The translations under genes were made by a program, and so were the position numbers. Below, in pieces: positions 1,883-20,023 of a DNA stretch of 20,534 nt. Under the pieces are notes generated by a model. The model saw only the letters and a program-made list of their open reading frames with translations, did no database searches and was not told the DNA's origin. Source of the DNA: a virus. How positions within the stretch are numbered: the first letter of the stretch is position 1; each line of letters opens with the position of its first letter. The stretch lies in the IMG/VR virus record IMGVR_UViG_3300032282_006023, positions 1-20,534 of that record; one strand, 5' to 3'.

Positions 1883-1894
1883 TAAAACAAATAT

Positions 1895-1926: not shown

Positions 1927-1939
1927 TTAATTTTATCAT

Positions 1940-3206: not shown

Positions 3207-3245
3207 TGTTTATGAAAGAATTTATTCACATTTTAAATAAAGAAA

Positions 3246-4247
3246 GTGATCAAAACACTTTTAGTAGATGGAAATAATCTATTCAAAATAGGTTATCACG
3301 GAGCAAAAGAACTATTTTATGAAGGTAATCATATTGGTGGAGTATATCACTTCATCAATATACTTCGTAAGTTTTTAGAAGAACACGATCACGATAAAGT
3401 GATTGTTATGTGGGATGGAGAATCTAACTCATCCGCAAGAAAACTATTATATCCCCAATATAAGGCGAATCGGCTTCAAATAATTAATGATGAAGTATAT
3501 GAATCCTATTTACAACAAAGAGGAAGAGTTAAACAATATCTTGAAGAAATATTTGTTAGACAAGTTGAGACGGATAATAATGAAGCGGATGATTTAATTG
3601 CTTATTATTGTCAAATTGCTAAAGATGAAAAAATAATCATATTCTCTGCGGACAAGGATCTTACACAATTAATTTCTGAAAATGTAACAATATATTCTCC
3701 GATATCTAAAAAATATTTTAAATACGGAGATATGATCACTTTGAATAAAGTTGATATACCTCATTATAATGTTGCCTTATGTAAAATCTTTGTTGGAGAT
3801 AAATCAGATAATATTGATGGAATCCAAGGAGTGGGTGAAAAAACTTTGGTAAAATTATTTCCTGAAATGCTTGATAAATCCTGCACTATTGAAGAATTGT
3901 TATACAATGCCCGAAATATCGAGCAAAATAAACCTGTTAAAACTATATCAAATATTTTGACTGGTAAAACAAAAAGTGGTATACTTGGAGAAGAGTTTTA
4001 CAAAACAAATAAAAAAATAGTAGATTTGTCCGAGTGTTTGATAACCGATGATGCAAAAGAATTGGTGGAACAAATATTAAACGATACAATTGATCCTGAA
4101 AATCGAGGGTATAAGAATCTAATGAGATTGATGATGGAAGACGGTCTTTTTAAATATTTACCAAAGAACGATGAAGCTTGGGTAAATTTTCTTCGACCAT
4201 TTATGAAACTAACAAGAAAAGAAAAACGACAAACAAATAAAAACTAA
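3246..4247 (+). CDS. rnh: T4 RNase H / FEN-family 5'-3' nuclease
   Basis: Metal-dependent 5' nuclease expected to remove RNA primers and 5' flaps from Okazaki fragments. The acidic residues of the FEN/PIN fold are all visible: D8 in LLVDGNN, D57 in VIVMWDG, E113/D115/D116 in ETDNNEADDL, D136 and D138 in FSADKDL, and D185 and D188 in VGDKSDNI. The helix-three-turn-helix DNA-binding element GIQGVGEKT is at 192-200. The basic SARK...YPQYKANR segment (63-76) corresponds to the helical arch region. At 333 residues it is near T4 RNase H (305). The start is a GTG; it is preferred because the catalytic LLVDGNN strand begins five residues later. An ATG at 3212 is in another frame and opens only a 21-codon frame. 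A run of purines (AAAGAAA) lies just upstream. Confidence 0.92.
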   Translation: MIKTLLVDGNNLFKIGYHGAKELFYEGNHIGGVYHFINILRKFLEEHDHDKVIVMWDGESNSSARKLLYPQYKANRLQIINDEVYESYLQQRGRVKQYLEEIFVRQVETDNNEADDLIAYYCQIAKDEKIIIFSADKDLTQLISENVTIYSPISKKYFKYGDMITLNKVDIPHYNVALCKIFVGDKSDNIDGIQGVGEKTLVKLFPEMLDKSCTIEELLYNARNIEQNKPVKTISNILTGKTKSGILGEEFYKTNKKIVDLSECLITDDAKELVEQILNDTIDPENRGYKNLMRLMMEDGLFKYLPKNDEAWVNFLRPFMKLTRKEKRQTNKN

Positions 4248-4254
4248 AAAAAAA

Positions 4255-4707
4255 ATGAAAGAGCAAGACAGTACGAAAATGGAGTTCCTTCTAACCCTAA
4301 ACGATAACATCGTTGTTCAAAGGTTCTTTAATGTGAGAGGGTATAATCCTCAAGCAAAAAACTCGATTGAGTTTTATGAGTTTATTAAATCCTTGAAAGA
4401 GGAACTTGAGTATTATCTCAAAATGAAAACCGTTGTCTATATGATGGACAATATGGAAGCAATTATGCATGATCCAAAGATCATGGAAACTTCATTTACC
4501 GAAGATGCGGAAATTTTTAACATCTATGTTAAAGTAAATGATCAGACAATTTGTCATAGAATTTTTGACGGAAAAAAGTTTCCACCAAAAGTTCGTTATA
4601 CAGTGGATGTAAGACCATATTTGAAAGATGTGCTTCGTGAGTTAACTGACATTTTTTCAAATTATGATTTAGAACATCAATATTTGGAATTTGATTTGAG
4701 GAAGTAA
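4255..4707 (+). CDS. Hypothetical protein next to the replicative helicase (150 aa)
   Basis: Not recognised. The 150-residue protein alternates predicted strands (FLLTLNDNIVVQRFFNVRGY, FNIYVKVNDQTICHRIF) with helices (FYEFIKSLKEELEYYLKMK, YLKDVLRELTDIFSNYDLE), and the two halves look loosely alike. One cysteine is present; there is no membrane segment or signal peptide. The ATG at 4255 follows a run of eight A residues; an in-frame ATG at codon 9 (4279) is a possible alternative. It lies between the 5' nuclease and the gp41-like helicase, 7 bases after the former. That position is compatible with a helicase loader or other replisome accessory, but this is inference from location only. Confidence 0.8.
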   Translation: MKEQDSTKMEFLLTLNDNIVVQRFFNVRGYNPQAKNSIEFYEFIKSLKEELEYYLKMKTVVYMMDNMEAIMHDPKIMETSFTEDAEIFNIYVKVNDQTICHRIFDGKKFPPKVRYTVDVRPYLKDVLRELTDIFSNYDLEHQYLEFDLRK

Positions 4708-4740
4708 GTATTTAATAATATAGGGGTATTTCAAAAAATT

Positions 4741-6117
4741 ATGAATAAGAATTTCGATTATTTAGGGAACACATTTCAGATTCAGTTATTAAACCAAATT
4801 ATCACAGACAAAGATTTTTCATCATCCATTATGGATGTGATAGAGAGTTCTTATTTTGATAACAAATATTTCAAGATCATCCTTCAGATGATTAAAGAAT
4901 ATCATTTGAAATATGAAACAACACCAAATTTTGATACACTTGAACAGATTGTTAAATCTGAAATTTCTCAAGAACTTGTTGCAAAAATTGTATTTGATAC
5001 ATTAAAACAAATCAAAGATGCTCCTTTTGAAGGATCATCTTTTGTACAAGAAAAGGCTCTTAAGTTTTGTAAACAACAGGAACTTCAGAAGGCAATGGAT
5101 AAGGCTCAAAAGATTATCACCGAAGGTGATTTTGAATCTTATGATAAAGTTGAAGGTTTGGTTAGAGAAGCATTACAAGTTGGAGAGGTTGATAAAGGGA
5201 CCACAGATATCTTCACAGGACTTGATACCGTATTGGAAGAAGATTATAGACATCCAATACCAATGGGAATACCAGGAATAGATAAACTATTAAAAGGTGG
5301 TTTAGCAAAAGGAGAGATTGGAGTTATACTTGCACCTACAGGTGTTGGTAAGACAACAATCCTTACTAAAATTGCAAATACAGCTTTTAATTTAGGATAC
5401 AATGTCCTTCAAATATTTTTTGAGGATAATCCAAAAATTGTTCAAAGAAAACACTTTACCATTTGGACTGGAATTGAACCTGATAATTTAGCAAATCATA
5501 AGGAAGAAGTAATGTCAAAAATTACTGAAATCAAAGATACCATGCAAAATAAACTTATTTTGAAAAAGATGGCATCTGATACTATGACAATGAGTAATAT
5601 AAAAAATCAGATCAGAAAAATGATTGCAGATGGAAACAAAATTGATTTAGTTTTGTTGGACTATATTGATTGTGTTTTACCTGAATCAACTTCAAAAGAT
5701 GAATGGAAAGCTGAAGGTTCTGTAATGAGAGGGTTTGAAGGAATGTGTCACGAGTTGGATATGGTTGGATGGACCGCCACACAGGGCAATAGGTCCTCAA
5801 TATCGTCTGAAGTTGTTACAACCGATCAGATGGGTGGGTCAATTAAAAAGGCTCAGGTTGGTCATGTAATCATCACTGTGGCGAAGAGCCTCCAACAGAA
5901 AGAGATGAATTTAGCGACAATAGCAATTACTAAATCGCGTCTTGGAAAAGACGGTGTTGTTTTTGAAAATTGTAAGTTCAATAACGAGCTATTGGAAATA
6001 GATACTGAATCATCAGTAACCTTCTTGGGTTTTGAAGAACAACAAGAAGAAAGAAAAAGAGATAGAGTAAAAGAACTCCTTGATAAGAGAAAACAAAGGG
6101 AAAATAAGGTTAATTAA
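4741..6117 (+). CDS. 41: gp41/DnaB-like replicative DNA helicase
   Basis: Hexameric 5'-3' helicase of the DnaB/T4 gp41 family, expected to unwind the replication fork and work with a primase. At 458 residues it is close to T4 gp41 (475). Residues 1-150 are the helical N-terminal domain, followed by a linker and the RecA-like motor. Walker A is A198-P-T-G-V-G-K204-T-T. Walker B is LVLLDYID (303-310). A TATQGNRSS segment matches the DnaB motif that senses nucleotide and DNA. KSRLGKDG around R400 is the likely arginine-finger segment. The C-terminus is very basic and charged (EERKRDRVKELLDKRKQRE). The ATG follows CAAAAAATT with no Shine-Dalgarno sequence. No separate primase gene is visible in the window. 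Confidence 0.93.
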   Translation: MNKNFDYLGNTFQIQLLNQIITDKDFSSSIMDVIESSYFDNKYFKIILQMIKEYHLKYETTPNFDTLEQIVKSEISQELVAKIVFDTLKQIKDAPFEGSSFVQEKALKFCKQQELQKAMDKAQKIITEGDFESYDKVEGLVREALQVGEVDKGTTDIFTGLDTVLEEDYRHPIPMGIPGIDKLLKGGLAKGEIGVILAPTGVGKTTILTKIANTAFNLGYNVLQIFFEDNPKIVQRKHFTIWTGIEPDNLANHKEEVMSKITEIKDTMQNKLILKKMASDTMTMSNIKNQIRKMIADGNKIDLVLLDYIDCVLPESTSKDEWKAEGSVMRGFEGMCHELDMVGWTATQGNRSSISSEVVTTDQMGGSIKKAQVGHVIITVAKSLQQKEMNLATIAITKSRLGKDGVVFENCKFNNELLEIDTESSVTFLGFEEQQEERKRDRVKELLDKRKQRENKVN

Positions 6118-6163
6118 ATATCTACTTTTTTGAAAAAAAACTTATTTTTTTTTAACAAAAATA

Positions 6164-6186
6164 ATGGTCGGTTATAAGCCAACCAT
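6164..6186 (+). other. Imperfect hairpin between helicase and reductase genes
   Basis: ATGGT at the left pairs with ACCAT at the right. Two further G-C pairs follow an internal C/A mismatch, and a T/G wobble closes a 5-base loop. An A/T-rich stretch with long A and T runs (6126-6153) lies before it and a TATTTAT motif follows at 6188. It may be a weak terminator or leader structure. The 128-base gap holding it is the longest intergenic region of the window. Confidence 0.4.
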
Positions 6187-6187
6187 A

Positions 6188-6194
6188 TATTTAT
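6188..6194 (+). promoter_or_regulatory. TATTTAT motif upstream of the class II reductase gene
   Basis: TATTTAT occurs 51 bases before the ATG at 6246, just after the imperfect hairpin at 6164-6186. If it marks a promoter, the reductase mRNA would have a longer A/T-rich leader than the other genes. Confidence 0.25.
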
Positions 6195-6245
6195 TATAAA
6201 AATCGTTGATTTTTTTAATAAAAACATAAAACTAAAAATTAAACA

Positions 6246-8108
6246 ATGGACATTTCAAACAGAATTCTCTCGGACATAACGGTATATATGAAATATTCAA
6301 AATTCATACCGGAATTAAACAGAAGAGAAACATGGCAAGAGTTAGTAACAAGGAACATGGAAATGCATATTAAGCATTATCCACAATTAGAAAAAGAAAT
6401 TAGAGAGAACTACATGTATGTGTTTAAAAAACAAGTTCTTCCATCAATGAGGTCAATGCAATTTGCAGGAAAACCAATTGAAATTTCACCAAATAGAATT
6501 TACAATTGTGCTTTCGCACCGATTGATGATTGGAGAGTATTCTCTGAAATTATGTTTTTATTGTTAGGTGGAACAGGTGTCGGATATTCAGTCCAAAAGC
6601 ATCATGTAGAAGCTTTACCTGAAATTCAGAAACCAAACAAAGAAAGAGGTAGAAGATGGTTAGTTGCTGATTCTATTGAAGGATGGGCAGATGCTGTTAA
6701 GGCTTTGGTAAAATCTTATTTTTTTGGTGGATCACATATTGAATTTGATTTTAGTGATATAAGAGCAAAAGGCGCTAGACTTGTAACATCAGGTGGAAAA
6801 GCTCCCGGACCTCAACCACTTAAAGAATGTCTTATAAAATTAGAAGGTATCCTTGACTCTAAAGAAAATGGTGAGAAATTGAGACCAATCGAAGTTCACG
6901 ATATGGTTTGTCATATTGCTGACGCAGTCCTTGCCGGAGGAATCCGGAGGGCAGCACTCATATCCTTGTTCTCTGCAACGGATGATGAAATGATTGGTTG
7001 TAAGTCAGGTGCTTGGTGGGAAACAAACCCACAAAGAGGAAGATCAAATAATTCAGCTGTGTTGCTCCGACACAAAATCACAAAAGATTACTTCATGGAC
7101 CTTTGGAAGAGAATTGAAGCAAGCGGAGCTGGTGAACCCGGTATTTATTTAACAAATGATAAAGATTGGGGAACCAATCCTTGTTGTGAAATAGCATTGA
7201 GACCATTTCAATTTTGCAATCTTGTCGAAACAAATGTATCAAATGTTGTAAGTCAAGAAGACTTTAATGACAGAGCTAAAGCGGCAACATTTATTGCAAC
7301 ACTTCAAGCGGGATATACTAAATTTCATTATTTGAGACCAATTTGGCAAAGAACAACAGAAAAAGATGCATTGATCGGGATCTCAATGACAGGAATTGGA
7401 TCAGGTGCTGTTCTAAAAATGGATATGAAACAAGCGTCAAAAATTGTGAAGGAAGAAAATAAAAGAGTGGCCGAACTCTTAAATATCAATCCAGCGGCAA
7501 GAACAACAACAGTTAAACCTGCGGGAACAACTTCATTGACCTTGGGAACATCTTCAGGTATTCACGCTTGGCATAATGATTATTACATAAGAAGAATCAG
7601 GGTCGGTAAGAATGAAGCAATTTATTCTTATTTAAAAGAAAATCATCCTGAACTTGTTGAGGATGAATATTTTAGACCACACGATACTGCGGTAATTGGT
7701 ATTCCACAAAAAGCGCCCGAAGGGTCTATTTTAAGGAATGAGTCACCCATTCAACTTCTTGAAAGGGTAAAGAAAGTTCATAATGAATGGATTAAACCAG
7801 GTCATAGAAGTGGATCAAATTCTCATAATGTATCTGCAACAATATCTATTAGAGAACACGAATGGCCGGCAGTTGGTGAGTGGATGTGGATAGAAAAGGA
7901 TCATTATAATGGGCTTTCAGTACTACCATATGATAATGGATCATACATCCAAGCACCTTTTGAAGATTGTACAAAAGAAAAATATGAAGAATTGATGGAA
8001 TCTCTTAAAGATGTTGATTTGTCAAAAATCATAGAATTAGACGATGATACTGATTTGAGTGGAGAGATCGCTTGTGGTGCAAACGGATGTGAAATTGTGT
8101 CGGCATAA
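6246..8108 (+). CDS. nrdJ: Adenosylcobalamin-dependent (class II) ribonucleotide reductase
   Basis: Reduces ribonucleotides, probably triphosphates, to deoxyribonucleotides using coenzyme B12 as radical source, feeding phage DNA synthesis. The residue pattern matches the monomeric Lactobacillus leichmannii enzyme (C119, C408, E410, C419, C731, C736). Here C88 (NRIYNCAF) and C324 (FQFCNLVE) would be the disulfide pair. C313 and E315 in NPCCEIAL are the thiyl cysteine and its glutamate. C610 and C615 near the C-terminus (ACGANGCE) would be the shuttle pair. The 11-residue spacing C313-C324 and the 5-residue spacing C610-C615 equal those of the reference. Other conserved blocks are GGTGVGYSVQ (108-117), LAGGIRRAALIS (229-240) and VKPAGTTSLTLGTSSGIH. 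At 620 residues it is well below the usual ~740, yet no key residue is missing, so it is a compact form rather than a truncation. No B12 riboswitch was recognised upstream. Confidence 0.93.
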   Translation: MDISNRILSDITVYMKYSKFIPELNRRETWQELVTRNMEMHIKHYPQLEKEIRENYMYVFKKQVLPSMRSMQFAGKPIEISPNRIYNCAFAPIDDWRVFSEIMFLLLGGTGVGYSVQKHHVEALPEIQKPNKERGRRWLVADSIEGWADAVKALVKSYFFGGSHIEFDFSDIRAKGARLVTSGGKAPGPQPLKECLIKLEGILDSKENGEKLRPIEVHDMVCHIADAVLAGGIRRAALISLFSATDDEMIGCKSGAWWETNPQRGRSNNSAVLLRHKITKDYFMDLWKRIEASGAGEPGIYLTNDKDWGTNPCCEIALRPFQFCNLVETNVSNVVSQEDFNDRAKAATFIATLQAGYTKFHYLRPIWQRTTEKDALIGISMTGIGSGAVLKMDMKQASKIVKEENKRVAELLNINPAARTTTVKPAGTTSLTLGTSSGIHAWHNDYYIRRIRVGKNEAIYSYLKENHPELVEDEYFRPHDTAVIGIPQKAPEGSILRNESPIQLLERVKKVHNEWIKPGHRSGSNSHNVSATISIREHEWPAVGEWMWIEKDHYNGLSVLPYDNGSYIQAPFEDCTKEKYEELMESLKDVDLSKIIELDDDTDLSGEIACGANGCEIVSA

Positions 8109-8111
8109 CCT

Positions 8112-8312
8112 ATGGAAAGTACAGAAAATAAAGGGAGGGAGAAGCAAATAAAGCTTCTCCCTTATCATTACTATATGGATGGTAAGTTTTTGGTATTCAC
8201 AGAACAATATCATATTGATCGTGGATATTGTTGTGGTACAAGTAAAGGATGCCGTCATTGTCCTTATGATCCAAAACATATTAAAGGAACAACTACTTTA
8301 ACAAAAAAATAA
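8112..8312 (+). CDS. DUF5522-like Cys-rich small protein
   Basis: This 66-residue protein has the layout I know from the DUF5522 family: a short FYY-type strand and FTEQYH followed by RGYCCG, a short insert and GCRHCPY. Four cysteines (CC, then GC and HC) and histidines suggest a bound metal, probably zinc; the function of the family is unknown. Family members usually have CC-x-x-GCRHCPY; here the gap is CCGTSKGCRHCPY, two residues longer as far as I recall. It begins 3 bases after the stop of the class II reductase and is probably co-transcribed with it. A 10-bp perfect hairpin lies inside the first part of the gene. The start at 8112 is chosen because the LLPYHYYMDG segment before codon 22 resembles the family's N-terminus; a later ATG at 8175 would lose it. 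Confidence 0.78.
   Translation: MESTENKGREKQIKLLPYHYYMDGKFLVFTEQYHIDRGYCCGTSKGCRHCPYDPKHIKGTTTLTKK
8136..8162 (+). other. Perfect 10-bp hairpin inside the DUF5522-like gene
   Basis: AGGGAGAAGC (8136-8145) pairs perfectly with GCTTCTCCCT (8153-8162) around a 7-base loop (AAATAAA). The region just before it (AAAGGGAGGG) is unusually G-rich for this genome. It lies within codons 9-17 of the gene and is followed by TTATCATT rather than a T tract, so it could be an RNA structure that limits read-through or translation, or a processing site after the reductase gene. It could also be chance. Confidence 0.45.
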
Positions 8313-8320
8313 TCATAGTA

Positions 8321-8327
8321 TATTTAT
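8321..8327 (+). promoter_or_regulatory. TATTTAT motif before the tail block
   Basis: TATTTAT ends 5 bases before the ATG of the gp25-like gene and is the only recurrent motif in the 20-base gap that separates the nucleotide-metabolism genes from the tail block. The spacing is shorter than at 31, 10716 and 19094, so it may be a start-site element rather than a promoter. Confidence 0.28.
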
Positions 8328-8332
8328 GAAAT

Positions 8333-8806
8333 ATGGCAGATGGGATTACATATGGTTTAAATTTTCCGTTTAAAGATTCATTAAGGGGTGATTATTTATT
8401 ACTTACCGAATTACAATCACAAGAAATTAAATCGGATCTTATTCATCTTCTTTTAACCAGAAAAGGATCAAGATATTATCTACCGACATTTGGAACAAGA
8501 TTATATGAATTTATTTTTGAACCATTTGACGGACTTACATTTAATGCAATTGAATCTGATATTAGAGATGCGATTGAAAATTTTATGCCAAACCTATTAG
8601 TCAATCAGATTACTATTGAACCTTTAGATCAAACTCAAGAAGTTAATAGCACGAATTTTTTGGATGAAACAGGAAGTAATAAATTGTATGACATATACAG
8701 AGTTCCTGGTAAAGGTACATCCGAGTATACTGCAAAAATAAAAATAGATTATTCAACAAATGGTCAAACATTTGCACAAAGTGATTTTGTTATAATCAAT
8801 ATTTAA
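8333..8806 (+). CDS. 25: gp25-like baseplate wedge protein
   Basis: Member of the GPW/gp25 family, a structural part of the contractile-tail baseplate wedge that touches the sheath and inner baseplate. The family core is clear: QEIKSDLIHLLLTRKGSRYYLPTFGTRLYEFIFEPFD, i.e. a helix, the RKGSR turn, the P-x-FGTRL motif and the FEP motif, followed by a second helix (FNAIESDIRDAIENFM) and strands. At 157 residues it is slightly longer than T4 gp25 (132), with an extra loop around 105-140. It starts the tail block and is followed after 5 bases by the gp6-like gene, the usual pairing in contractile tails. The ATG is preceded by TATTTAT at 8321-8327. Confidence 0.92.
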   Translation: MADGITYGLNFPFKDSLRGDYLLLTELQSQEIKSDLIHLLLTRKGSRYYLPTFGTRLYEFIFEPFDGLTFNAIESDIRDAIENFMPNLLVNQITIEPLDQTQEVNSTNFLDETGSNKLYDIYRVPGKGTSEYTAKIKIDYSTNGQTFAQSDFVIINI

Positions 8807-8811
8807 GAAAG

Positions 8812-10650
8812 ATGGCAAGTCGTAAAATATCATATACAACAAGAGATTTTCAGGCAATAAGAACTGAATTATTAAATTATGTAAAAACATATTATCCTAC
8901 ACTAATACAAGATTTTAATGATGCTTCAGTATTCTCTGTGTTTATAGATTTAAACGCTGCGGTTACTGATAACTTACATTATAACATTGATAGAAGTATT
9001 CAGGAAACTGTATTACAATATGCCCAACAAAGATCATCAGTATATAACATAGCAAGAACATATGGTCTTAAAATCCCTGGACAAAGACCTTCAGTATCCT
9101 TGGTAGATTTTTCAATAACGGTACCTGCTTATGGAGATAAAGAAGATGAAAGATATTTGGGAATTCTCCAAAGAGGATCTCAAGTAGTTGGTGCTGGATT
9201 AGTATTTGAGAATGTTTATGATATTGATTTTGCTTCTCCATACAATTCTCAAGGTTTTCCAAATAGACTAAAGATCCCAAATTTTAATGCAAATGGAATT
9301 CTTTTGAATTATACTATAACAAAAAGAGAAATAGTTGTTAATGGTATAACTAAAGTTTTCAAACAAGTTATAACGGCAAGTGATGTTAGACCATTTTACG
9401 AGTTATTCTTACCTGAAAAAAATGTTTTGGGTATTACATCAGTATTACTAAAAGATGGAACAGATTATACAAATATCCCAACAACAGGAGAATTTTTAGG
9501 GCTAGCAAATAGATGGTATGAAGTTGATGCTTTAGCTGAAGACAGAGTTTTTATTGAAGATCCTACAAAAGTTTCTGATAAACCTGGTATTAAAGTTGGT
9601 AGATATATTCAAACGCCTAATAGGTTTATTTCAGAATATACCGCAGAGGGATTTAAAAAAATGACTTTTGGTGGTGGAACAAACACAGCTCAAGATGCAT
9701 TAAACGAATTTACAACTTTAGGAGTAACTTTAGACCTACAAAGATATTCAAATAACTTTTCATTAGGATCTGCATTAACACCTAATTCTACTTTGTTTAT
9801 TCAATATAGAATCGGTGGAGGAATTCAAACTAATTTGGGAACCAATGTGATTAATCAAGTTGGAACGGTTGCATTCTTTGTAAATGGGCCTTCAGAATCT
9901 CAAAACTCTGCGGTGGTAAATTCATTAAGATGTAATAATGTAACTGCGGCAATAGGAGGAGCTGGAATTCCATCAATAGAAGAGATTAGAAATTATGTAT
10001 CATTTAACTTTTCTGCACAAAAAAGAGCAGTAACTGTTCAAGATTATGAATCTATAATCAGAAATATGCCAGCAACATTTGGAGCACCAGCAAAAGTTTC
10101 AATTACGGAAAACGATAATAAGATATTGATTCAAATCCTTTCATATGATTCATCAGGAAAGTTAACTAATATAGTTTCAAATACATTGAAACAAAATATT
10201 GCAAATTACTTATCTAACTATAGAATGATGAATGATTACATTTCAATATTTACCGCTGAAGTAATAGACTTGAGTGTTGATGTTTCAATTGTATTAACAT
10301 CAGCACAAAATTCAGGACAAATTATTTCTCAAGTTATTGATACCATTTCAACATATTTTAATCCACAAACAAGGCAACTTGGTCAAAATGTTTATTTATC
10401 TGAAATAAAAAGTTTAGTCCAAAATTTAAATGGGGTTTTAACCGTCGCTAGCTTAAACATATTTAATGAAGTTGGAGGACAGTATTCATCAGCACAAACA
10501 TCGATGGAGTATTCAGATCCTGTAACTAAAGAAATTGGTCCTGTAGACGATACAATATTTGCTCAACCTTCTCAAGTTTATCAAATTAGGTATCCAAACA
10601 AAGATATTAGGGTTTCAGTTAAGAACTTCCAATCTATTACTTTCTCATAA
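8812..10650 (+). CDS. 6: gp6 / baseplate-J-like wedge protein
   Basis: Baseplate wedge protein of the J/gp6 family that forms the iris-like ring of contractile-tail baseplates. At 612 residues it is close to T4 gp6 (660). The N-terminal segment TTRDFQAIRTELLNYVKTYYP...FIDLNAAVTDNLHYNIDRSIQE is typical of the family. The segment RAVTVQDYESIIRNMP near residue 404 is the conserved part of the C-terminal J-like domain, followed by alternating strands and helices (ISQVIDTISTYFNPQTRQLGQNVYLSEIKSLV). There is no signal peptide. It follows the gp25-like gene by 5 bases. The gap of 85 bases after it is the largest within the tail block and carries TATTTAT motifs. Confidence 0.9.
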   Translation: MASRKISYTTRDFQAIRTELLNYVKTYYPTLIQDFNDASVFSVFIDLNAAVTDNLHYNIDRSIQETVLQYAQQRSSVYNIARTYGLKIPGQRPSVSLVDFSITVPAYGDKEDERYLGILQRGSQVVGAGLVFENVYDIDFASPYNSQGFPNRLKIPNFNANGILLNYTITKREIVVNGITKVFKQVITASDVRPFYELFLPEKNVLGITSVLLKDGTDYTNIPTTGEFLGLANRWYEVDALAEDRVFIEDPTKVSDKPGIKVGRYIQTPNRFISEYTAEGFKKMTFGGGTNTAQDALNEFTTLGVTLDLQRYSNNFSLGSALTPNSTLFIQYRIGGGIQTNLGTNVINQVGTVAFFVNGPSESQNSAVVNSLRCNNVTAAIGGAGIPSIEEIRNYVSFNFSAQKRAVTVQDYESIIRNMPATFGAPAKVSITENDNKILIQILSYDSSGKLTNIVSNTLKQNIANYLSNYRMMNDYISIFTAEVIDLSVDVSIVLTSAQNSGQIISQVIDTISTYFNPQTRQLGQNVYLSEIKSLVQNLNGVLTVASLNIFNEVGGQYSSAQTSMEYSDPVTKEIGPVDDTIFAQPSQVYQIRYPNKDIRVSVKNFQSITFS

Positions 10651-10710
10651 GTTCACTTATTTATCATTTAACCTATTATTTAGTAATGTGCGAACCTGAA
10701 AAATTCTACA

Positions 10711-10723
10711 TAAACTATTTATT
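10711..10723 (+). promoter_or_regulatory. TATTTAT-type upstream motif before the giant tail gene
   Basis: The 13 bases TAAACTATTTATT are identical to a stretch before the gene starting at 19115 (19089-19101) and lie 12 bases before the ATG at 10736. The TATTTAT core also occurs at 10658-10664 in the same gap. The repeated sequence and similar spacing suggest a phage-specific promoter or translation-start element. It was found by eye and has not been tested statistically. Confidence 0.45.
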
Positions 10724-10735
10724 TAAAAACTCCTA

Positions 10736-13700
10736 ATGGGTCAATCCTATAGAATAAGATCAGAGATTGGTATTAATAAAACAATTAATGTTCAAATAGA
10801 TCAAGAATTTGATTTTATTGAACTTTTATCTTTAAAAATACAACAAGAAGACATATACACAAGAAGTTGTGCTGACTATGGTGTTTTAGCCGGTAGAATT
10901 ACAGCAAATAATGGTTTTGGAATTCCAAACGCAAGAGTATCTATTTTTATACCTATTGAAAACATAGATGAATCTAACCCAATAGTCACAAGCATATATC
11001 CTTATAAGTCACCAACAGATAAAAACGAAGATGGATATAGGTACAATTTATTACCTTACGAAAAATCATATTCAAAACATGCAGCCACAGGAACATTACC
11101 TACAAGATTAGATGTTTTAACAGGTAAAACCGCAATAGAAATATACGACAAATATTATAAATTTACTGCGAAGACTAATGAAAGTGGTGATTATATGATA
11201 ATGGGGGTACCATTAGGTAATCAAACTGTTGTTATGGATGTTGATTTATCTGACATAGGTGAATTCTCATTAACACCACAAGATTTGATTAGAATGGGAT
11301 TGGCAACAGAATCTCAAGTTGCCGGAAATAAATTTAAAACATCCAAAGATTTAAATTCTCTTCCACAATTAGTTTCAATTAGTAAAAGTATTGATGTGTC
11401 TCCATTATGGGGTGATCCTGACATTTGTCAAATTGCAATAAGTAGAGTTGATTTTGATTTGAGAGATGAGGCGAATATAGACATACAACCAACTTCGGTT
11501 TTTATGGGATCAATTTATTCCGCTCCTGACAAATTTAGAGTAAGAAGTAATTGTAAACCAAAAGATAATTTAGGTAATTTATGTAATTTAGAGGCAGGAC
11601 CAGGACAAATCTTAGCCTTAAGACAGACAATTCAACAAGATTCAGATGGTAATCCAATATTAGAACAATATCAACTTGAACAAGCTGGTAATATAATTGA
11701 TGGAAATGGGGTATGGTTGACGGAGTTACCAATGAATTTACAGTATGTTATAACTAATGAATTTGGTGAAAAAATAATATCTAACGATCCAACAATAGGA
11801 ATACCAACCAAAGCAAAATATAGATTTAAAATTAAATGGCAACAATCGGCAACACTTACGGAACAAACAAGAAGGGCTTATTTTTTGGTTCCAAATATTA
11901 GAGAATACGGGTGGACTAATTCAAATAATGATCCAAACTATGATAGTGATGTAACAATATCTAATCAGCTTAGAAGTTCATATTATTTTGGGTTAGATTG
12001 GACAGGGTATACAAACGGTTTAAATTCAACTCAAGAAGTAAATAAAAAACTAGATGAAATTATTGAGTGTAAAGATACTTTTTATGAGTTTGAATTTAAT
12101 AAAGTATATACAGTTTCAGGTTTAATTGACGAATATAAAAAAGGGGCTAAAGGAAGATTTATAGGGATTAAAGAAATTGATGATGATAGTTGTTCATCAA
12201 CTATTAATAAATTTCCAGTAAATGAAGGGTTTAGAAATTTTGATTTGTTATTTTTTATATTTTCTATTTTATTTCAAGCTATTCAAATAATAGGGATACC
12301 GGTTTTAATTATTGCTCATTTAATACTTGGACTTATTGCTTTGATTACTAATTTTCTTTGCGAATTATGTAAAATAAAAATACCTATTATTAATGTAAGA
12401 CCTTTTGGATTTTTATGTAATTTATTAAATATAAAATGTGAAAAGAAAGATTTTACCATTAAATTATCTATGATAACATATCCAGAGTGTGAAGCGTGTG
12501 AATGTACAGATACAAGTTTAAATAGTAGTATAGTTGGAGGTGGTACTAATGGAGTATTATCATATTTTTCAGATGCCGGAAGTTATTTCAACAACCTTCA
12601 AACACTCATTACAAAACAAGGTAAAACAGCTCAAGAAGATGTGAGCTTAAATGCATTAATTTATTCACAAGCAATTGGAGGAAATTCAGATAATGTTGCT
12701 GACGTTTCTTTATTTAAAATGCCAAAATCAAGTGTTTTAAGATTTACTAATGCCGAAGAAGATTATATGGCATTAGGAACACAATTACCATTGGGAGAAA
12801 GAATAAATATATTCAATGGCAGAAGTAATTATTTTAATGGATTAAACAAAATTAAAGTCACTTTTCAAAGTGATGCAAATGGAACATTTCATTATGATAA
12901 TACAATAACTGTTATATCTAACGCACCATTTATTTCAGGACAACTTCTTACTACAGTCAATCCTGCAACATCTTTAGACCCAAATTTTCTTTTTAGCGCA
13001 ACAACAAATAATGGGATAGTACAAGGATTATTAGGGGCCACAAAACAAGGAGCATTCAATTTAAATGTAAGTTATTGTAACCCAACAAATAATTTATCAA
13101 ATTTAACAACACCATATAAGATTTTATCTGGAGGAACTATAAATAGACAACTTTATCCTATGGATAGGGAGTATTTTCAAGTACTTACAGCAATTACGAT
13201 ATCTGAAGCATCCAAAATTTGGAAAGCTGGTAGTACCTCAACAATACCATCAATTTTAGAATCAAGTATGGTAATTCAGCTTAGAGAAAAAGGTAACAGT
13301 AGATTTCTTGAACCTGATAAAAGAGGTGGAAGAATTGATACTTATAAATTTAAGGAAACTTTTGATAATTTTGATCAGCAATATATTCTTATTTTACAAA
13401 GAGGAGTTGACCCTTATTCTCCTCTAATAACTAACAAATATGGTATTGGTAAAATATTGGGTTTGCCAAATGAAGATGGTTTGCAAATAACAACAAGTGC
13501 GAGATTAAATATTCCAATACAAAGTTTAAATTCTGGTGCGGCTACAGTACAAAATTTTTCGCAAACAAATATATTTTATCCTTCATATTTCTTTACGATT
13601 AGTAATCGATTTTCGGCTTTTACTACTTCTACAATTGGATACTATGGAGCATTAGATGCAACACTACCAAGACAAGATTGGGCAAGAAAATCATTTTTTA

Positions 13701-15490
13701 ATGCAACAGGAATTATAAGTATTGGTCAACAAATGGCGAGTAGCGCTCCCTCTATAGGTGAGTATGACGCTTCTGATGATATATCGGGTAATTCTTACAT
13801 TTATGCCACTTGGAATGATTCTAAAAACAGAACAAAATATAGCCAATTTGAATTCACATATTATACACCTAATCTATACCCATCTTTTCAGACAACACCA
13901 ATGAGGTTGTCTGATAAAACAAAAAATGTTATGAGAACAGATAGGTTACCATCTTCGGATCAATTAAATGGGCAAAGTTGGACAACCAATCCTGCATTAT
14001 TACAACAAAATAACAATTTCCAATTATATACAATACCTGAATTAACAGCTGATTCAAAAAATCCTGGATACTCAACGGGAGCTTCTCAAGTAACTCCTGA
14101 TTTGGAGGATCAAGCATTTTCAGGAACCGTTTATGGTAGTTTTAGTTGTCCTGGTATGGTTAGTCTTTCTTGTTATTCTGGCAGTGGGTTTAATTTTGGA
14201 ATAGATGAAAAATGCAGAATTACCGATTCTGTACAATTAGGGTGTTATATTTTATTAAAAAGACCCATTCTTGATATAGGTAAAGATTTAAAAACATTTA
14301 ATGAGTGGGGATATAGGTATAGATTTTTTTATGGTTTATGTCGAGGAGTTTTAGCTCAATCATTTATGAATAATTGGGTGAATGGATCGTTATTTGCATT
14401 CCCTATTCAAACAAGCACCTATTATAATAAAAAAAATTTACCATACTCAACTGTTTGCAAAGATTTAATTTATTTTGATAATACAACTAATAATTTCTAT
14501 TATAGAAGTAGTCCTTATAATAAGACCACCAATTATTTTATAGGTAAAAGTAAACCAAATGCAACATCAGTTAATGATTTAAACTTATTGTTCCCAACAA
14601 CTTTAATAAATTTAGGACCTAAAGATTATTTTTATCAAGAAATCACATTTAATCCCTCAAATAAAGGATATATTTTAGATCAGTTAAGTCCAACAACATA
14701 TAATGATACTTCTGATATGGTAAATCTTTTTGTTATATCAAGAATTGTAAATTCTAGTTTTCTCGCAAAATTAATTAGTATTGGTAATAATGGATTAGAT
14801 CAACTTTTTAGTAGAGATGGTAATTTTGGTCCTTTTGGGGCTAAAAGAATTGATGGAGATTTGGCACAAATGATGTCAATAAATTCTGAAATTGGTAACA
14901 TAAGTTTTTCACCAGAATTTTATCAATTTGGTACTGGTAATACAAGTCCTGTTTATGTTAATACAGAAGGTAAATCATTTATTGGAATTTATTATTCATC
15001 AACAACTGGAAATTTACAATTTAAAGATTATATAAGCCCTGGAAGGATTGATTTTAGAGGTCCGGCACCAAACGAACAATTATATCCATATTCATATGGA
15101 ATTAAATCTCAAGTAGTTCCATTTTACCAATGGGGACCAGGAGCAAAATCGGCTCAAACAATATTTGGAAGTGAATTAAGTAATTGGCAAACTAATAGCG
15201 GAGACATTGTACAAGGAAAACTTTATCAAGGATTGGACAGATTATCAATACAAACTCCATCTTATTTTAAGGGGGCGAATGCTTCAATCAGTGATACCTT
15301 TGCTAGAGGGTATATTTTTGAAGTAAATGCTGTTCCTACACCTAACGCCACTCAATTTACATTTTCTACGGGAGATGGTGTATTACCTAATAAATTTATT
15401 GTGGGAGCACCATTTCATTTTTATTTTGGACTAATTAAAGGACAAACTGCATTAGATAAATTTAAAACAAAGTATTCTGTAGGTGAATAA
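10736..15490 (+). CDS. Giant tail/baseplate protein with internal hydrophobic segment (1584 aa)
   Basis: Probable virion protein in the position of T4 gp7 (1032 residues), directly behind gp25- and gp6-like genes, but much longer and without a recognisable gp7 sequence. Residues about 47-172 resemble a carboxypeptidase-regulatory-like/CNA-B-like beta sandwich (YGVLAGRITANNGFGIPNARVSIFIP, then TNESGDYMIMGVPLGNQTVVM) with an insertion. A 39-residue hydrophobic stretch at 503-541, broken by G520-I-P522, is long enough for one or two membrane helices. Seven cysteines follow (542, 545, 561, 568, 585, 588, 590), including CELC and CEACEC. The remaining 1000 residues are rich in Asn, Thr, Tyr and Phe, as in beta-rich tail proteins. 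There is no N-terminal signal. Its last 8 bases overlap the next gene. It may be a wedge, a peripheral tail component or a membrane-contacting protein. Confidence 0.85.
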   Translation: MGQSYRIRSEIGINKTINVQIDQEFDFIELLSLKIQQEDIYTRSCADYGVLAGRITANNGFGIPNARVSIFIPIENIDESNPIVTSIYPYKSPTDKNEDGYRYNLLPYEKSYSKHAATGTLPTRLDVLTGKTAIEIYDKYYKFTAKTNESGDYMIMGVPLGNQTVVMDVDLSDIGEFSLTPQDLIRMGLATESQVAGNKFKTSKDLNSLPQLVSISKSIDVSPLWGDPDICQIAISRVDFDLRDEANIDIQPTSVFMGSIYSAPDKFRVRSNCKPKDNLGNLCNLEAGPGQILALRQTIQQDSDGNPILEQYQLEQAGNIIDGNGVWLTELPMNLQYVITNEFGEKIISNDPTIGIPTKAKYRFKIKWQQSATLTEQTRRAYFLVPNIREYGWTNSNNDPNYDSDVTISNQLRSSYYFGLDWTGYTNGLNSTQEVNKKLDEIIECKDTFYEFEFNKVYTVSGLIDEYKKGAKGRFIGIKEIDDDSCSSTINKFPVNEGFRNFDLLFFIFSILFQAIQIIGIPVLIIAHLILGLIALITNFLCELCKIKIPIINVRPFGFLCNLLNIKCEKKDFTIKLSMITYPECEACECTDTSLNSSIVGGGTNGVLSYFSDAGSYFNNLQTLITKQGKTAQEDVSLNALIYSQAIGGNSDNVADVSLFKMPKSSVLRFTNAEEDYMALGTQLPLGERINIFNGRSNYFNGLNKIKVTFQSDANGTFHYDNTITVISNAPFISGQLLTTVNPATSLDPNFLFSATTNNGIVQGLLGATKQGAFNLNVSYCNPTNNLSNLTTPYKILSGGTINRQLYPMDREYFQVLTAITISEASKIWKAGSTSTIPSILESSMVIQLREKGNSRFLEPDKRGGRIDTYKFKETFDNFDQQYILILQRGVDPYSPLITNKYGIGKILGLPNEDGLQITTSARLNIPIQSLNSGAATVQNFSQTNIFYPSYFFTISNRFSAFTTSTIGYYGALDATLPRQDWARKSFFNATGIISIGQQMASSAPSIGEYDASDDISGNSYIYATWNDSKNRTKYSQFEFTYYTPNLYPSFQTTPMRLSDKTKNVMRTDRLPSSDQLNGQSWTTNPALLQQNNNFQLYTIPELTADSKNPGYSTGASQVTPDLEDQAFSGTVYGSFSCPGMVSLSCYSGSGFNFGIDEKCRITDSVQLGCYILLKRPILDIGKDLKTFNEWGYRYRFFYGLCRGVLAQSFMNNWVNGSLFAFPIQTSTYYNKKNLPYSTVCKDLIYFDNTTNNFYYRSSPYNKTTNYFIGKSKPNATSVNDLNLLFPTTLINLGPKDYFYQEITFNPSNKGYILDQLSPTTYNDTSDMVNLFVISRIVNSSFLAKLISIGNNGLDQLFSRDGNFGPFGAKRIDGDLAQMMSINSEIGNISFSPEFYQFGTGNTSPVYVNTEGKSFIGIYYSSTTGNLQFKDYISPGRIDFRGPAPNEQLYPYSYGIKSQVVPFYQWGPGAKSAQTIFGSELSNWQTNSGDIVQGKLYQGLDRLSIQTPSYFKGANASISDTFARGYIFEVNAVPTPNATQFTFSTGDGVLPNKFIVGAPFHFYFGLIKGQTALDKFKTKYSVGE

Positions 15491-17180
15491 ATATACAATC
15501 ATACCAAGTTCATATGAATATCAGTCGGCTCCAAAAGTTGATCAAGAAATTAGTATAAATTTGGAAGAACAATTGCAACAAATAATTGAATATGATCGTG
15601 CATCTACGGTTAGTTTAGCTCAAGTTTTTGATGATGAAAGACAAAGTTGCACCGTATTCAGACCCACATTTAAAGTTGTTTATTTATATGCCAACACAAT
15701 AACGGGAACAACCAAGTATGCTCCATTTCAATATAACTTATATTATGTGGATGCTGAAACATCTGCATTTACTGGAATTTGGAAAGGATTTCCGCAATAT
15801 TACGAATTTGATTTTTTTAGAGGAAATGCTTATGACCAACATTTTGAATATAGATCAAAAAGTGCTTACTCTTATAACTGGATGTATTATTTAAGCTATG
15901 CCTCTAATAATGATTACAACAAAGAACTTTATTACAATTTTGAGAATTCAAGTTTAACTTGGACAGCATCTACCGGAATTCCATTTGTTATTAAGAATAG
16001 TGCGGAAAACGGTAATTCAATAATTTCATTTCAATGCATTGCTCCTCACGGATTATCTTCAGGAGAATATGTCGAATTGTCTTTATCTTATGCAAATAAA
16101 AATCTTTTTCAAGTTTATAGTTTAGGTAACGGATTATTTAATAGTAATGAATATATTTTTAACATATATAATGTTGGATATACGGGAACAACTTTTAGTA
16201 ATAATGTAATTGGTACTTTCAAAAGAGTTGCCAATCCTGATAATCGTATTGAGACAACATCAAAATATTATATAAGACAACATAAAATTCATTCAAATGC
16301 AGAAGATATTGCAGTAACAAGAATAGGATTTGAAAGAAACCTTTTTTCTGAAGAACAAAGTTTTGAATATAGTTCAATAACTCCTAATAAAATTTCAAGA
16401 GTATCAAAAAAGACATCAAGTAATGCTTATAATTTAACATTAAATTATGATTTAGATTTAGCAAAAACCGTTGATAATCAAAAAAGACCTGTAAGTGAAT
16501 TGTTCTTAACAATAATAAACAAAGGATATTCGGGATATTTTAATCAACCAAATGATGGTATTGGATTAAAACAAGGTTGGGAGTTTAATATTACATCTAG
16601 TTCAAGTACTTGGTGGAGTACAACTAATCAAAAATCAAATACCACAATAAAAGTAGAGTCATATGATAGAACAGACAGAGGAAAAAATTATACTTTTTAT
16701 TATAATTCAAACCTTAATAAAGGGGATATTATAGATGGTGATTTTTGCGAATGGAATGATTATGAACAAACAGAAAGAGTCGTATCACCATATTATCAAA
16801 AGTTGAAATTCAATGAAAATGTTTTTCAAACAATAAGTGCGCCTCAACAAAACCCTCCCGGATATTATTATAGCCCACATAACTCAATGACTATTAGAGT
16901 ATTTTCAGATTATATTGAAACTGGAGATGTTGCAACGGTAGATTTAATTCCATCTTATTCTTTTTATTCCAATTTTGATCAACAATTTAGGTGGAGAGAT
17001 CTATATACTTATGGGTTCATTGATAATCTTGAGAGAGGAGTAAATTATCCATTTTTTAATAGTGCCCAATATCCTTATCAAGATATAGTATTTAGATTGA
17101 TACCTGAAGGATCAAATTATACCCAATCACTTTTAGGAATAAATTATCCGATAAAGCCAATTGTAGATGAGTGTGAATAA
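15483..17180 (+). CDS. Probable tail/baseplate protein (565 aa)
   Basis: Unrecognised large protein, rich in Tyr, Asn, Ser and Phe, in the tail block. An APHGLSSGEYVELS segment near residue 191 is like the short HGL-x-x-GD-x-V motif found in many phage tail and baseplate proteins. The C-terminal part has a run of aromatic residues (SYSFYSNFDQQFRWRDLYTYGF). No membrane segment, signal peptide or catalytic motif is visible. The start is a GTG that overlaps the preceding stop by 8 bases (GTGAATAA); no better start is near. By position it could correspond to a T4 gp8-like wedge component, but the sequence alone does not show this. Confidence 0.78.
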   Translation: MNKYTIIPSSYEYQSAPKVDQEISINLEEQLQQIIEYDRASTVSLAQVFDDERQSCTVFRPTFKVVYLYANTITGTTKYAPFQYNLYYVDAETSAFTGIWKGFPQYYEFDFFRGNAYDQHFEYRSKSAYSYNWMYYLSYASNNDYNKELYYNFENSSLTWTASTGIPFVIKNSAENGNSIISFQCIAPHGLSSGEYVELSLSYANKNLFQVYSLGNGLFNSNEYIFNIYNVGYTGTTFSNNVIGTFKRVANPDNRIETTSKYYIRQHKIHSNAEDIAVTRIGFERNLFSEEQSFEYSSITPNKISRVSKKTSSNAYNLTLNYDLDLAKTVDNQKRPVSELFLTIINKGYSGYFNQPNDGIGLKQGWEFNITSSSSTWWSTTNQKSNTTIKVESYDRTDRGKNYTFYYNSNLNKGDIIDGDFCEWNDYEQTERVVSPYYQKLKFNENVFQTISAPQQNPPGYYYSPHNSMTIRVFSDYIETGDVATVDLIPSYSFYSNFDQQFRWRDLYTYGFIDNLERGVNYPFFNSAQYPYQDIVFRLIPEGSNYTQSLLGINYPIKPIVDECE

Positions 17181-17982
17181 ATATTTTATAAGACAAGACA
17201 ATTTTACGGATAAGCAAGTAGATCTTTTAGTTAGACTTGATTGGGATTATCTTGGTATTGATCAAAGCATTGATTTATATGAGCAAGAAGTTATAACGGA
17301 AGTAATTGGTGTTGGAAGAGATTTTGAAGTTGATAGATTTTCTAATGAACCATATTCAGGAGCATCTAAAGATACTGCAATAAATTATCAATTTTATTTT
17401 TATTCTGGAGGGTCACTTAACGATGAAAATAATTGGAGATTAGATTATAGGAGTGAAGGATTTACAACAGGGAATGTATATTATTATGATAATAATTTTT
17501 CTAATTCTTTTTTTAAGTTTGATCTATATGATAGTACTGACGACAAAAAACAAAAAAATTATATAACGATTATTATACCAACACAACAAGGGTTAAAAAT
17601 GGATGCGATGCTTCAAAGAACTCCAGTAACCATAAAAAAACCTGAATTTGTATTAGATTTTGTTGGAGATGTTGAAGGGTTTTTTATTTATTGGTTAAAG
17701 AAAAGAACTTTTTTGAATATCGACACATTTTATATGACCGCAAAATTTTATAATGCAGATGTCGGAGCTTTTACAAAAATGATGAATGTTCCACAATCAA
17801 CACTTTCAGGAGATAAATATAATTTCGATAACCTAACATATTTTTATTATAAAGTAAAATTAGATTACGATAAAAGAACTTATCAAGTATTCAATTTGAA
17901 TCCTAATGTTACTCTTTACCCTGATGGGCAAAGAGCAGGAACACCAGTTCCTATAAAATGGTATGAATATGTTAACCCATAA
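17167..17982 (+). CDS. Probable tail protein (271 aa)
   Basis: Unrecognised protein of the tail block, beta-rich and aromatic, without membrane segment or signal. It begins with ATG AGT GTG AAT AAA TAT, overlapping the previous gene by 14 bases; its third to sixth codons repeat the first codons of the previous gene. It ends with TAATG shared with the next start. The tight coupling on both sides suggests its product is made in fixed proportion with its neighbours, as for baseplate subunits. Function not assigned. Confidence 0.78.
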   Translation: MSVNKYFIRQDNFTDKQVDLLVRLDWDYLGIDQSIDLYEQEVITEVIGVGRDFEVDRFSNEPYSGASKDTAINYQFYFYSGGSLNDENNWRLDYRSEGFTTGNVYYYDNNFSNSFFKFDLYDSTDDKKQKNYITIIIPTQQGLKMDAMLQRTPVTIKKPEFVLDFVGDVEGFFIYWLKKRTFLNIDTFYMTAKFYNADVGAFTKMMNVPQSTLSGDKYNFDNLTYFYYKVKLDYDKRTYQVFNLNPNVTLYPDGQRAGTPVPIKWYEYVNP

Positions 17983-19091
17983 TGGCAGATTATAATTTTA
18001 TAGTATCACCTGAAACAATTAAAGGAGATTTATTTCAAGTTAATTATCAGGGTGTAGATGTGGGAGTTTATTCTGCAATGACTAAAGTTGTTAGTTCTGG
18101 AATTGGGGGCAGTTCGTTATTGACAGGATTAACAGTAAATGTACTTCTAACTCAATCTGCTCACGATGTTGGATACTATACGCCATTTGATGGTGCAGTA
18201 ATACAAAAAGATGTTGTGTCCAATTTCATCTTCTCTGCAACAACGGGAGATCCTTATACATACTATGTTTATAATACATCAAATGAGTTTCAAAAGTTTT
18301 TGGAACTTTCACAGTATACATTAGACTGGGGAGACGGGTCATCAATTCAAATTATAGATACTTTTACTCCAAACTATTTAAGTCACACTTATCCTTCAGC
18401 AACTTCAGGATATACAATAACCTTAAAACAAGTAAATCCTTGGGGTGTAAACACGGTATCAAAAGAAATTTTAACACCTTTTGAAAATGTTACAATATAT
18501 AATCCGAATGGATTATGTTTTTTCCAAGCATCTTATGGTAATTGGATAAACACTCCTGTAAGTTATGATTATATTTTTTCTGGTGATGCGGTAAATGTTG
18601 TGTCCGCACAAACATCAAATAATTTTACAACAGTTCCATTTATTGTTTCAGGAATAACCAAATCAAGAATTAATGAACTTAAACTTTATGGTACTAGACC
18701 ACCAATAGAACCTTTATATAGTCCGTTTTTTGAAATAGGTACTCCTGTTATTGCCAATGGTCAAATATGGGGGGCGATAAATAATTGTGATACCGGAATT
18801 TTTACTGCTTACACTATTCAAAATATTAATTATTATGATTATGCAGATGGAACAACAATATTTTTTGAACAATCATCAGGATTTACTGATGCTAATTTAA
18901 CAGCCGTTCCTATAACAAAACTTGAATCTCTTTTAAAGGTTTATGATCAACCACAAATCCAAACCGATGTTTTTATTGAGAGAGGAAAGAACAGTGCATA
19001 TGAAAGAGTCCAAAGATTAGGAGAGGTCGATAATATAGGAGATCTCTTAAACTATGGATATGGATTTTTTAATGTTGAAAAAGTGAATTAA
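17982..19091 (+). CDS. Virion protein with a PKD-like domain (369 aa)
   Basis: Probable structural or host-contact protein. A PKD-like immunoglobulin-fold domain is visible at about 75-165: the LDWGDGSS motif at 114-121, HTYPSATSGYTITL at 135-148, and a NPWG strand just after. PKD domains are common in surface and tail-associated proteins. The rest is beta-rich and unassigned, with a charged C-terminal helix-like part (FIERGKNSAYERVQRLGEV). The start shares one base with the previous stop (TAATG). No membrane segment or signal. The exact role, fibre, adhesin or wedge, is not shown. Confidence 0.8.
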   Translation: MADYNFIVSPETIKGDLFQVNYQGVDVGVYSAMTKVVSSGIGGSSLLTGLTVNVLLTQSAHDVGYYTPFDGAVIQKDVVSNFIFSATTGDPYTYYVYNTSNEFQKFLELSQYTLDWGDGSSIQIIDTFTPNYLSHTYPSATSGYTITLKQVNPWGVNTVSKEILTPFENVTIYNPNGLCFFQASYGNWINTPVSYDYIFSGDAVNVVSAQTSNNFTTVPFIVSGITKSRINELKLYGTRPPIEPLYSPFFEIGTPVIANGQIWGAINNCDTGIFTAYTIQNINYYDYADGTTIFFEQSSGFTDANLTAVPITKLESLLKVYDQPQIQTDVFIERGKNSAYERVQRLGEVDNIGDLLNYGYGFFNVEKVN

Positions 19092-19101
19092 ACTATTTAT
19101 T
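19089..19101 (+). promoter_or_regulatory. TATTTAT-type upstream motif, second identical copy
   Basis: TAAACTATTTATT here is identical over 13 bases to 10711-10723. It overlaps the stop codon of the preceding gene and lies 13 bases before the ATG at 19115, followed in both places by an A-rich leader. It may be a late promoter or a start-site element. Confidence 0.45.
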
Positions 19102-19114
19102 AAAAAAAGAAAAA

Positions 19115-20023
19115 ATGGCAATTGGATCATATGGGACAATAAGACCTTCTGATGTTAGTCCTGAAGACGTTGAAATTATAATGACATACACACCCTCAAG
19201 GGACGTAACTGATAGTTTTACATTAACACAACTAGATGCTCAAACTTTATTGAGACCTTATTTTAATAATTCTGACACTGGAGGAAATGCTGGTGTGGAA
19301 GTATTGGGTGGTTTATATAATTTAACACTACCTGCGGAACAATTTAATAATTTAGGTATTTACACTCTCTATTTAAGACCAGCGCAAATCAGAACAGTTA
19401 TTACAGATTGTGGAGTTTTAAGTGCATTGCCAAATGTTAAAGGAATAATAATTGACGTTAGTAATGTTCCTGTTCAATACCAAAATAAATTCGTTCCTCA
19501 AGGGTTAGTTGGTTTTAGAGTCGAATATTTAAATCCTGATGGGTCAAAAATACCAAACTTTTTTAGAGTCGTTACATCTTGTTTTTTTTGTGAACCTGTT
19601 GTTACAAATGAAGTTAATACTACACAAAAGGCAATAAGATATAGATATGTTGATGGAGACGCAAATTTGATATTCTTAACTTTATCACCATCATCCTCAC
19701 CAACTAATAAACCAAATGCAACTCCATTTATAGGACAACCTAGCCAAAGTATTATTATTTCTAATACATATTTTAATCCTATATCACTTGAGGTTGAAAT
19801 GGTTGAATACGATATCTCATCTCTTGCAATAGCTCTTTACGGTAATCAAACTAAATCAATTGATGACGGTATTTACACAATCTATGATGCTCAAAGTAAC
19901 ATATACAGACAATACAACTTGTATGAGATTAGAGATCAATTTAATGCATTGTTATATGAAGTTAGACAAAGTAGAGGTGGAAACATCGATTTTAGTAAGA
20001 ATTTTACAAACATAACTAGTTAA
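19115..20023 (+). CDS. Probable virion protein (302 aa)
   Basis: Unrecognised protein of the tail block. It starts MAIGSYGTIRPSDVSPEDVEIIMTY and is beta-rich through the middle (GVEVLGGLYNLTLP, GIYTLYLRPAQIRTVI, KGIIIDVSNVP). Two cysteines sit close together in TSCFFCEP near residue 153, with one more at about 103. The C-terminal part (about 255-290) looks helical and charged (YNLYEIRDQFNALLYEVRQSRGG). An A-rich leader (AAAAAAAGAAAAA) precedes the ATG. It shares one base with the next start (TAATG). A structural role is inferred from context only. Confidence 0.8.
   Translation: MAIGSYGTIRPSDVSPEDVEIIMTYTPSRDVTDSFTLTQLDAQTLLRPYFNNSDTGGNAGVEVLGGLYNLTLPAEQFNNLGIYTLYLRPAQIRTVITDCGVLSALPNVKGIIIDVSNVPVQYQNKFVPQGLVGFRVEYLNPDGSKIPNFFRVVTSCFFCEPVVTNEVNTTQKAIRYRYVDGDANLIFLTLSPSSSPTNKPNATPFIGQPSQSIIISNTYFNPISLEVEMVEYDISSLAIALYGNQTKSIDDGIYTIYDAQSNIYRQYNLYEIRDQFNALLYEVRQSRGGNIDFSKNFTNITS

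Follow-up and report, generated by a model that had tools for sequence, protein, structure and literature searches.

A conserved membrane-like hydrophobic segment in a giant baseplate-cluster protein of uncultured phages

In phage phi29, the L-loops of the tail-knob protein gp9 are hydrophobic, are hidden in the resting virion, leave the knob after genome release and form a barrel with a hydrophobic outside (PMC6542822). Cis13 of tCIS, a thylakoid-anchored contractile system, spans the membrane (PMC8894136). Tape measure proteins with transmembrane segments have been reported for TP901-1 and diffocin (PMC5099701, PMC10996793). Alg11 of AlgoCIS contains a disulfide, C268-C1000, which is needed for firing (PMC13314943). 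The GenBank note on phage T4 gp7 states that the 'C-terminus is predicted integral membrane domain', and gp7 is present in solved baseplate entries.

In this study, we compared these systems with a protein of 1584 residues, called the giant protein below, which is encoded in the window, that is, the whole stretch of 20,534 nucleotides of IMG/VR record IMGVR_UViG_3300032282_006023 that was analysed. Like phi29 gp9, the giant protein is predicted to have a hydrophobic helical segment inserted in a tail-tip protein, but the phi29 tail is short and non-contractile, unlike the contractile system expected here, and the exposure and the pore are data of phi29 only. As with Cis13/Cis12, a predicted transmembrane helix would link the periphery of a contractile-machine baseplate to a membrane, whereas Cis13 is a tail-fibre-like trimer that acts in the producing cell and the giant protein comes from an infecting phage. 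The tape measures of TP901-1 and diffocin are similar in that hydrophobic helices of a tail protein are proposed to meet the host membrane. However, a tape measure sits inside the tube, while the giant gene lies in a baseplate cluster beside gp6 and its product is modelled with much beta structure. Its gene position does not support a tape measure identity. Alg11 is another protein; its long-range disulfide, in the baseplate of a contractile machine, has a candidate counterpart in the giant protein, the bond C273-C1241, which is predicted from covariation only.

The gene cluster of the window is as follows.

8333..8806, plus strand: gp25-like baseplate wedge protein or sheath initiator (PHROG 261, E 1.1e-17; Pfam GPW_gp25, E 7.7e-12)
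8812..10650, plus strand: gp6-like (Baseplate_J) wedge protein (PHROG 219, E 2.4e-26; Pfam Baseplate_J, E 2.2e-7)
10736..15490, plus strand: open reading frame of the giant protein (1584 aa), the third gene of the cluster gp25-gp6-giant
15483..17180, plus strand: 565-aa protein downstream of the giant gene, family unassigned, a kept neighbour in 75/75 covered contigs
17167..17982, plus strand: 271-aa protein downstream of the giant gene, kept in 64/64 covered contigs
17982..19091, plus strand: 369-aa protein downstream of the giant gene, kept in 52/52 covered contigs
19115..20023, plus strand: 302-aa protein downstream of the giant gene, kept in 49/49 covered contigs

The order gp25-gp6-giant-565-271-369-302 was kept in nearly all covered contigs, and among the non-redundant relatives with enough flanking sequence, gp6 was present in 86 of 86 and gp25 in 63 of 64. 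The assignment of the giant protein as a putative baseplate component rests on the gene order gp25-gp6-giant. Because a gp23 capsid protein of the T4 type is encoded on four of the eight longer relative contigs, we regard this as a T4-like phage family. We infer that the giant protein is a tail-tip virion protein of uncultured T4-like myophages. The relative contigs reach 326 kb, and two IMG/VR scans gave 119 and 586 tblastn-confirmed matching stretches, respectively, so the family is large. The cluster is tightly packed except for about 85 non-coding bases between gp6 and the giant gene (10651-10735), and a gap of similar size was seen in relatives. Directly upstream of gp25, positions 6246-8108 encode a ribonucleotide reductase large subunit with a match to the class II (B12-type) insertion domain, which was found at this place in only 16 of 39 covered relative contigs. 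Positions 281-919 encode a protein of 212 aa that is rich in proline in one stretch and acidic in its middle part.

The giant protein had no match above the cut-off in PHROGs or Pfam, and its family had no tblastn match among 50,697 INPHARED phage records. A profile of 26 sequences found no PDB sequence at E <= 1, and no bacterial genome was matched in a genome-contig scan; a known family was thus ruled out at these levels. When the model of residues 1-830 was searched with Foldseek against BFVD, one relative was found, Myoviridae sp. ctPuP5 (E 2.2e-22, 43% identity), and apart from it there was no match at E <= 0.001; the helix fragment had no PDB match at the same threshold. By gp6, the nearest isolates were Flavobacterium immuto, Microcystis Mel-JY01 and LR756508. 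Their post-gp6 proteins (1265-1400 aa) were rejected as relatives, with a Kyte-Doolittle (KD) maximum of 1.1-1.4, no hydrophobic run and no profile match. The 12 listed genes of the window (starts 1031-19115) have A/T-rich leaders without clear Shine-Dalgarno motifs. Such leaders are common in Bacteroidota and their phages. Together with the Flavobacterium gp6 relative, the A-rich leaders are the only hint that the host may belong to the Bacteroidota.

The segment under study and the invariant cysteines on its two sides are located as follows.

12191..12193, plus strand: invariant C486 on the N-terminal side of the hydrophobic insert (102/102 sequences)
12242..12358, plus strand: membrane-like hydrophobic run by hydropathy, residues 503-541, with G-I-P at 520-522 (kept in 102/102 sequences)
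12488..12505, plus strand: invariant CxxCxC (C585, C588, C590) closing the insert (102/102 sequences)

An earlier note on this DNA had described residues 503-541 as almost continuously hydrophobic with a G-I-P break, and this was confirmed. The highest KD average of any 19-mer in the giant protein was 2.77, at residue 518/519, a value reached in 0.3% of shuffles of the same protein, and the maximum in the other open reading frames tested in the window was at most 1.76. Among these frames, a negative crude insertion-energy sum was obtained for segment 503-541 only. The 21-mers starting at 501-525 had a mean Eisenberg hydrophobicity (H) of 0.70-0.88 and a low moment of 0.18-0.34, which places them in the transmembrane corner of the plot.

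The conservation of the run was one of the checks that the earlier note had set, and we compared 102 non-redundant sequences (<90% mutual identity), the lowest being about 44% identical to the window protein. All 102 had a 19-mer of KD >= 2.0 at the same site, always between the invariant C486 and the invariant CxxCxC, which rules out chance or a sequencing artefact as the source of the segment. The length and the letters of the insert were far less constant. The insert, counted between D503 and residue 577, was 37-136 residues long, and pairwise identity was 0.40 within 504-541 versus 0.74 on either flank, while the hydrophobic fraction within 504-541 rose to 0.80. The best insert 21-mer had H >= 0.73 in every relative, compared with a median of 0.51 elsewhere in the protein. 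In one relative (L125), the letters at the insert site seemed unrelated and yet were hydrophobic, and long-insert members had up to 93 charge-free residues. These comparisons indicate that selection on the insert acts on composition and not on the packing of particular side chains, and they support the view that the segment evolves like a membrane segment, with composition kept and length and letters free. Because hydrophobicity is always kept while length and letters vary, we favour a membrane module. Some relatives (L022, L083, L105, L128 and L217) carry a second, independent hydrophobic insert near window residue 1035 in the C-terminal half (KD 2.1-2.7, region of 66-76 aa), which is absent from the window protein.

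AlphaFold2 was run on residues 1-830 with 63 sequences, and the following features were obtained from this model or placed on it.

10874..11485, plus strand: putative transthyretin/CnaB/carboxypeptidase-regulatory-like beta-sandwich, N-terminal residues ~47-250 (VIA-align matches; weak Pfam match)
12230..12370, plus strand: predicted long helix, residues 499-545 (local pLDDT 66-81)
12263..12340, plus strand: polar stripe on one helix face, residues 510 (S), 514 (Q), 517 (Q), 528 (H) and 535

The model was poor overall (pLDDT 56, pTM 0.32). At the segment it gave, with moderate confidence (pLDDT 66-81), a long hydrophobic helix and no clearly buried core; as a monomer model of poor overall quality, it is no guide to burial once the baseplate is assembled. 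In a long-insert relative (L135), AlphaFold2 gave a hydrophobic helix pair, 108-166 and 171-193, with pLDDT 87-98. On a helix that is otherwise greasy, the conserved polar residues 510, 514, 517, 528 and 535 all lie in one stripe 60 degrees wide; position 535 is mostly N in relatives and A in the window. The clustering on the wheel had a permutation p of 0.0017, with positions chosen post hoc, and an unbiased test of the helical hydrophobicity period gave p of about 0.01. If the model is correct, a greasy helix with a narrow polar stripe would show the pattern of an oligomer in lipid, the reverse of a soluble coiled coil. In the N-terminal region, the Pfam CarboxypepD_reg match was weak and below the cut-off (E 0.034). 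When residues 37-253, where the model has moderate local confidence, were compared by VIA-align, the matches were chains of teneurin, CnaB and transthyretin with Z 6.4-9.4, for the most part at rmsd 2-4 A over about 80-100 residues. T4 gp7 has an N-terminal helix-turn-helix that takes part in the core bundle of (gp6)2-gp7; in this region of the giant protein, a single short helix was modelled, at residues 26-34 with pLDDT under 60.

The main rival to a membrane module is that the helices pack into a permanently buried bundle in the baseplate, against copies of themselves, gp6 or an adjacent subunit, and at no stage come into contact with lipid. Wedge proteins do use helix bundles, such as the core bundle of (gp6)2-gp7 (PMC10457771), and the polar stripe might reflect helix packing. 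T4 gp7 (L251:7061-10159) served as a control. It has a hydrophobic 19-mer of KD 2.07 at residue 886 within a protein solved in the baseplate, and this "membrane" segment is probably a false positive that belongs to a folded core; hydropathy alone may thus have misled before, because the "integral membrane domain" of gp7 lies in a protein solved in the baseplate. Since gp7 has a shorter one, the remark of the earlier note that such segments are absent from wedge proteins goes too far and is only partly right; the pattern of the gp7 segment is different. Like gp7, the giant protein is large, has a hydrophobic 19-mer, and its gene comes right after gp6 in a cluster that includes gp25. However, the gp7 segment is single, short and near the C-terminal end, a nearly constant string led by HPxGFGF, and in six relatives, with identity over the fragment as low as about 31%, its letters were nearly the same and its length was equal. 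Such constancy of length and letters is expected of a packed core, whereas the insert of the giant protein ranges over 37-136 aa with drifting letters and contains as many as 93 residues without charge in long members. We consider permanent burial unlikely. Homology between the giant protein and gp7 was not found (hhalign probability 0.0 with gp7 as a single sequence, no PHROG match); the sequence does not support placing it in the gp7 family, and a remote relation below this sensitivity is possible.

A second rival is a role in assembly and not at infection, in which the helix would hold nascent baseplates at the inner membrane of the host. Related machines do have baseplates anchored in a membrane: tCIS needs the transmembrane helix of Cis13 for its position (PMC8894136). 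However, tCIS and T6SS remain in the cell, whereas a phage must be released, for which the helix would need to be pulled out of the membrane or shed, and we regard this explanation as improbable.

The remaining features concern the variable cysteines.

11552..11554, plus strand: C273, co-inherited with C1241 (both in 62, one only in 0 and 2, neither in 38 of 102 relatives)
12359..12439, plus strand: Cys hairpin 542-568, with the putative pair 545-561 nested inside the putative pair 542-568 (phi of co-occurrence 1.00 for 542/568 and 0.98 for 545/561; tree contrasts)
14456..14458, plus strand: C1241, candidate partner of C273 (co-occurrence; tree contrasts)

The seven cysteines within 49 residues, including CELC and CEACEC, were found where the earlier note had seen them, at 542, 545, 561, 568, 585, 588 and 590, and such a cluster was matched in 0.02% of shuffles of the same protein. 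Their conservation in relatives was only partial: C585, C588 and C590 are invariant, while 542, 545, 561 and 568 vary, and do so in pairs. Among the 102 sequences, 542 and 568 were together in 49 and absent together in 53, with no exception (49/0/0/53), and 545 and 561 were nearly always together (40/0/1/61). The outer pair 542/568 was kept without the inner pair in 9 of 102, one of these with C561 alone. The number of cysteines in the insert was 0, 2, 4 or 6 in 101 of 102 sequences, and odd in L125 only. C273 and C1241, 968 residues apart, were jointly present or absent in 100 of 102. On a tree built without the cysteine columns tested, 545/561 changed in the same direction in 9 of 10 independent contrasts and never in the opposite direction (sign test p 0.004); the corresponding counts were 4 of 4 for 542/568 and about 5 of 6 for 273/1241, which are too few for significance alone. 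The mismatched controls 545/568 and 273/542 changed together in only 4 of 10 and about 1 of 6, respectively. This paired gain and loss suggests that 542/568, 545/561 and 273/1241 are disulfides, the last pointing to a long-range bond between the N- and C-terminal parts of the giant protein. C486, C585, C588 and C590 could form a metal site or disulfides; they never vary and are for this reason uninformative on the choice, and the flanks that hold them had pLDDT under 50 in the AlphaFold2 model.

The proposal that the seven cysteines are one metal-bound part is not supported, as four of them come and go as two pairs. Pairwise co-loss rules out a single metal cluster of all seven, and a zinc-ribbon-like site of 542/545/561/568 would need four ligands conserved together, but the outer pair persists without the inner one. 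It is very improbable that the cysteines bind zinc or iron-sulfur with the hydrophobic run as a buried support: the CxxC and CxxCxC spacing and the four cysteines (C486, C585, C588, C590) invariant in 102/102 fit such a site, but C542/C545/C561/C568 vary in pairs, and a metal site built on four cysteines would be lost once only two were left.

We believe that a shielded, membrane-inserting helical module of a tail-tip protein is the best explanation, and give it slightly better than an even chance; for the segment itself, we lean somewhat towards a membrane reading. In the resting virion, the helices would be shielded inside the baseplate. Receptor binding and sheath contraction would open the baseplate, so that the copies expose their helices, which would enter the host membrane, most likely the outer membrane. 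The greasy faces would turn toward lipid, while the polar stripes would line a lumen or lie against one another, and insertion would give the opened baseplate an anchor and/or help the tube to pass. The helix of short-insert members may be capped by a hairpin stapled by disulfides (542-568, 545-561), whereas long-insert relatives replace the hairpin 542-568 with further hydrophobic sequence, predicted to be an extra hydrophobic helix. The invariant C486 and CxxCxC probably hold the module at its base to the rest of the protein. Against such a module, the continuous helix of 59 residues in the prediction far exceeds one bilayer crossing. It is possible, but doubtful, that in this widespread family a baseplate ring of shielded, disulfide-stapled transmembrane helices inserts into the host membrane at contraction and surrounds the tube as an anchor or gasket.

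The finding is real and goes beyond chance hydropathy, and the metal reading is mostly replaced by disulfides. How the tube and DNA of contractile phages pass through the envelope, and whether the baseplate contacts lipid, is largely an open question, and to our knowledge membrane entry has not previously been shown for this part of the contractile phage tail. The giant protein is without known relatives in isolates or the PDB. Its cysteine pairs give direct and cheap predictions in the form of specific disulfides. With a membrane-grade helix that is conserved in the tail-gene cluster of a large phage family from the environment, the question of contact between baseplate and lipid becomes testable.
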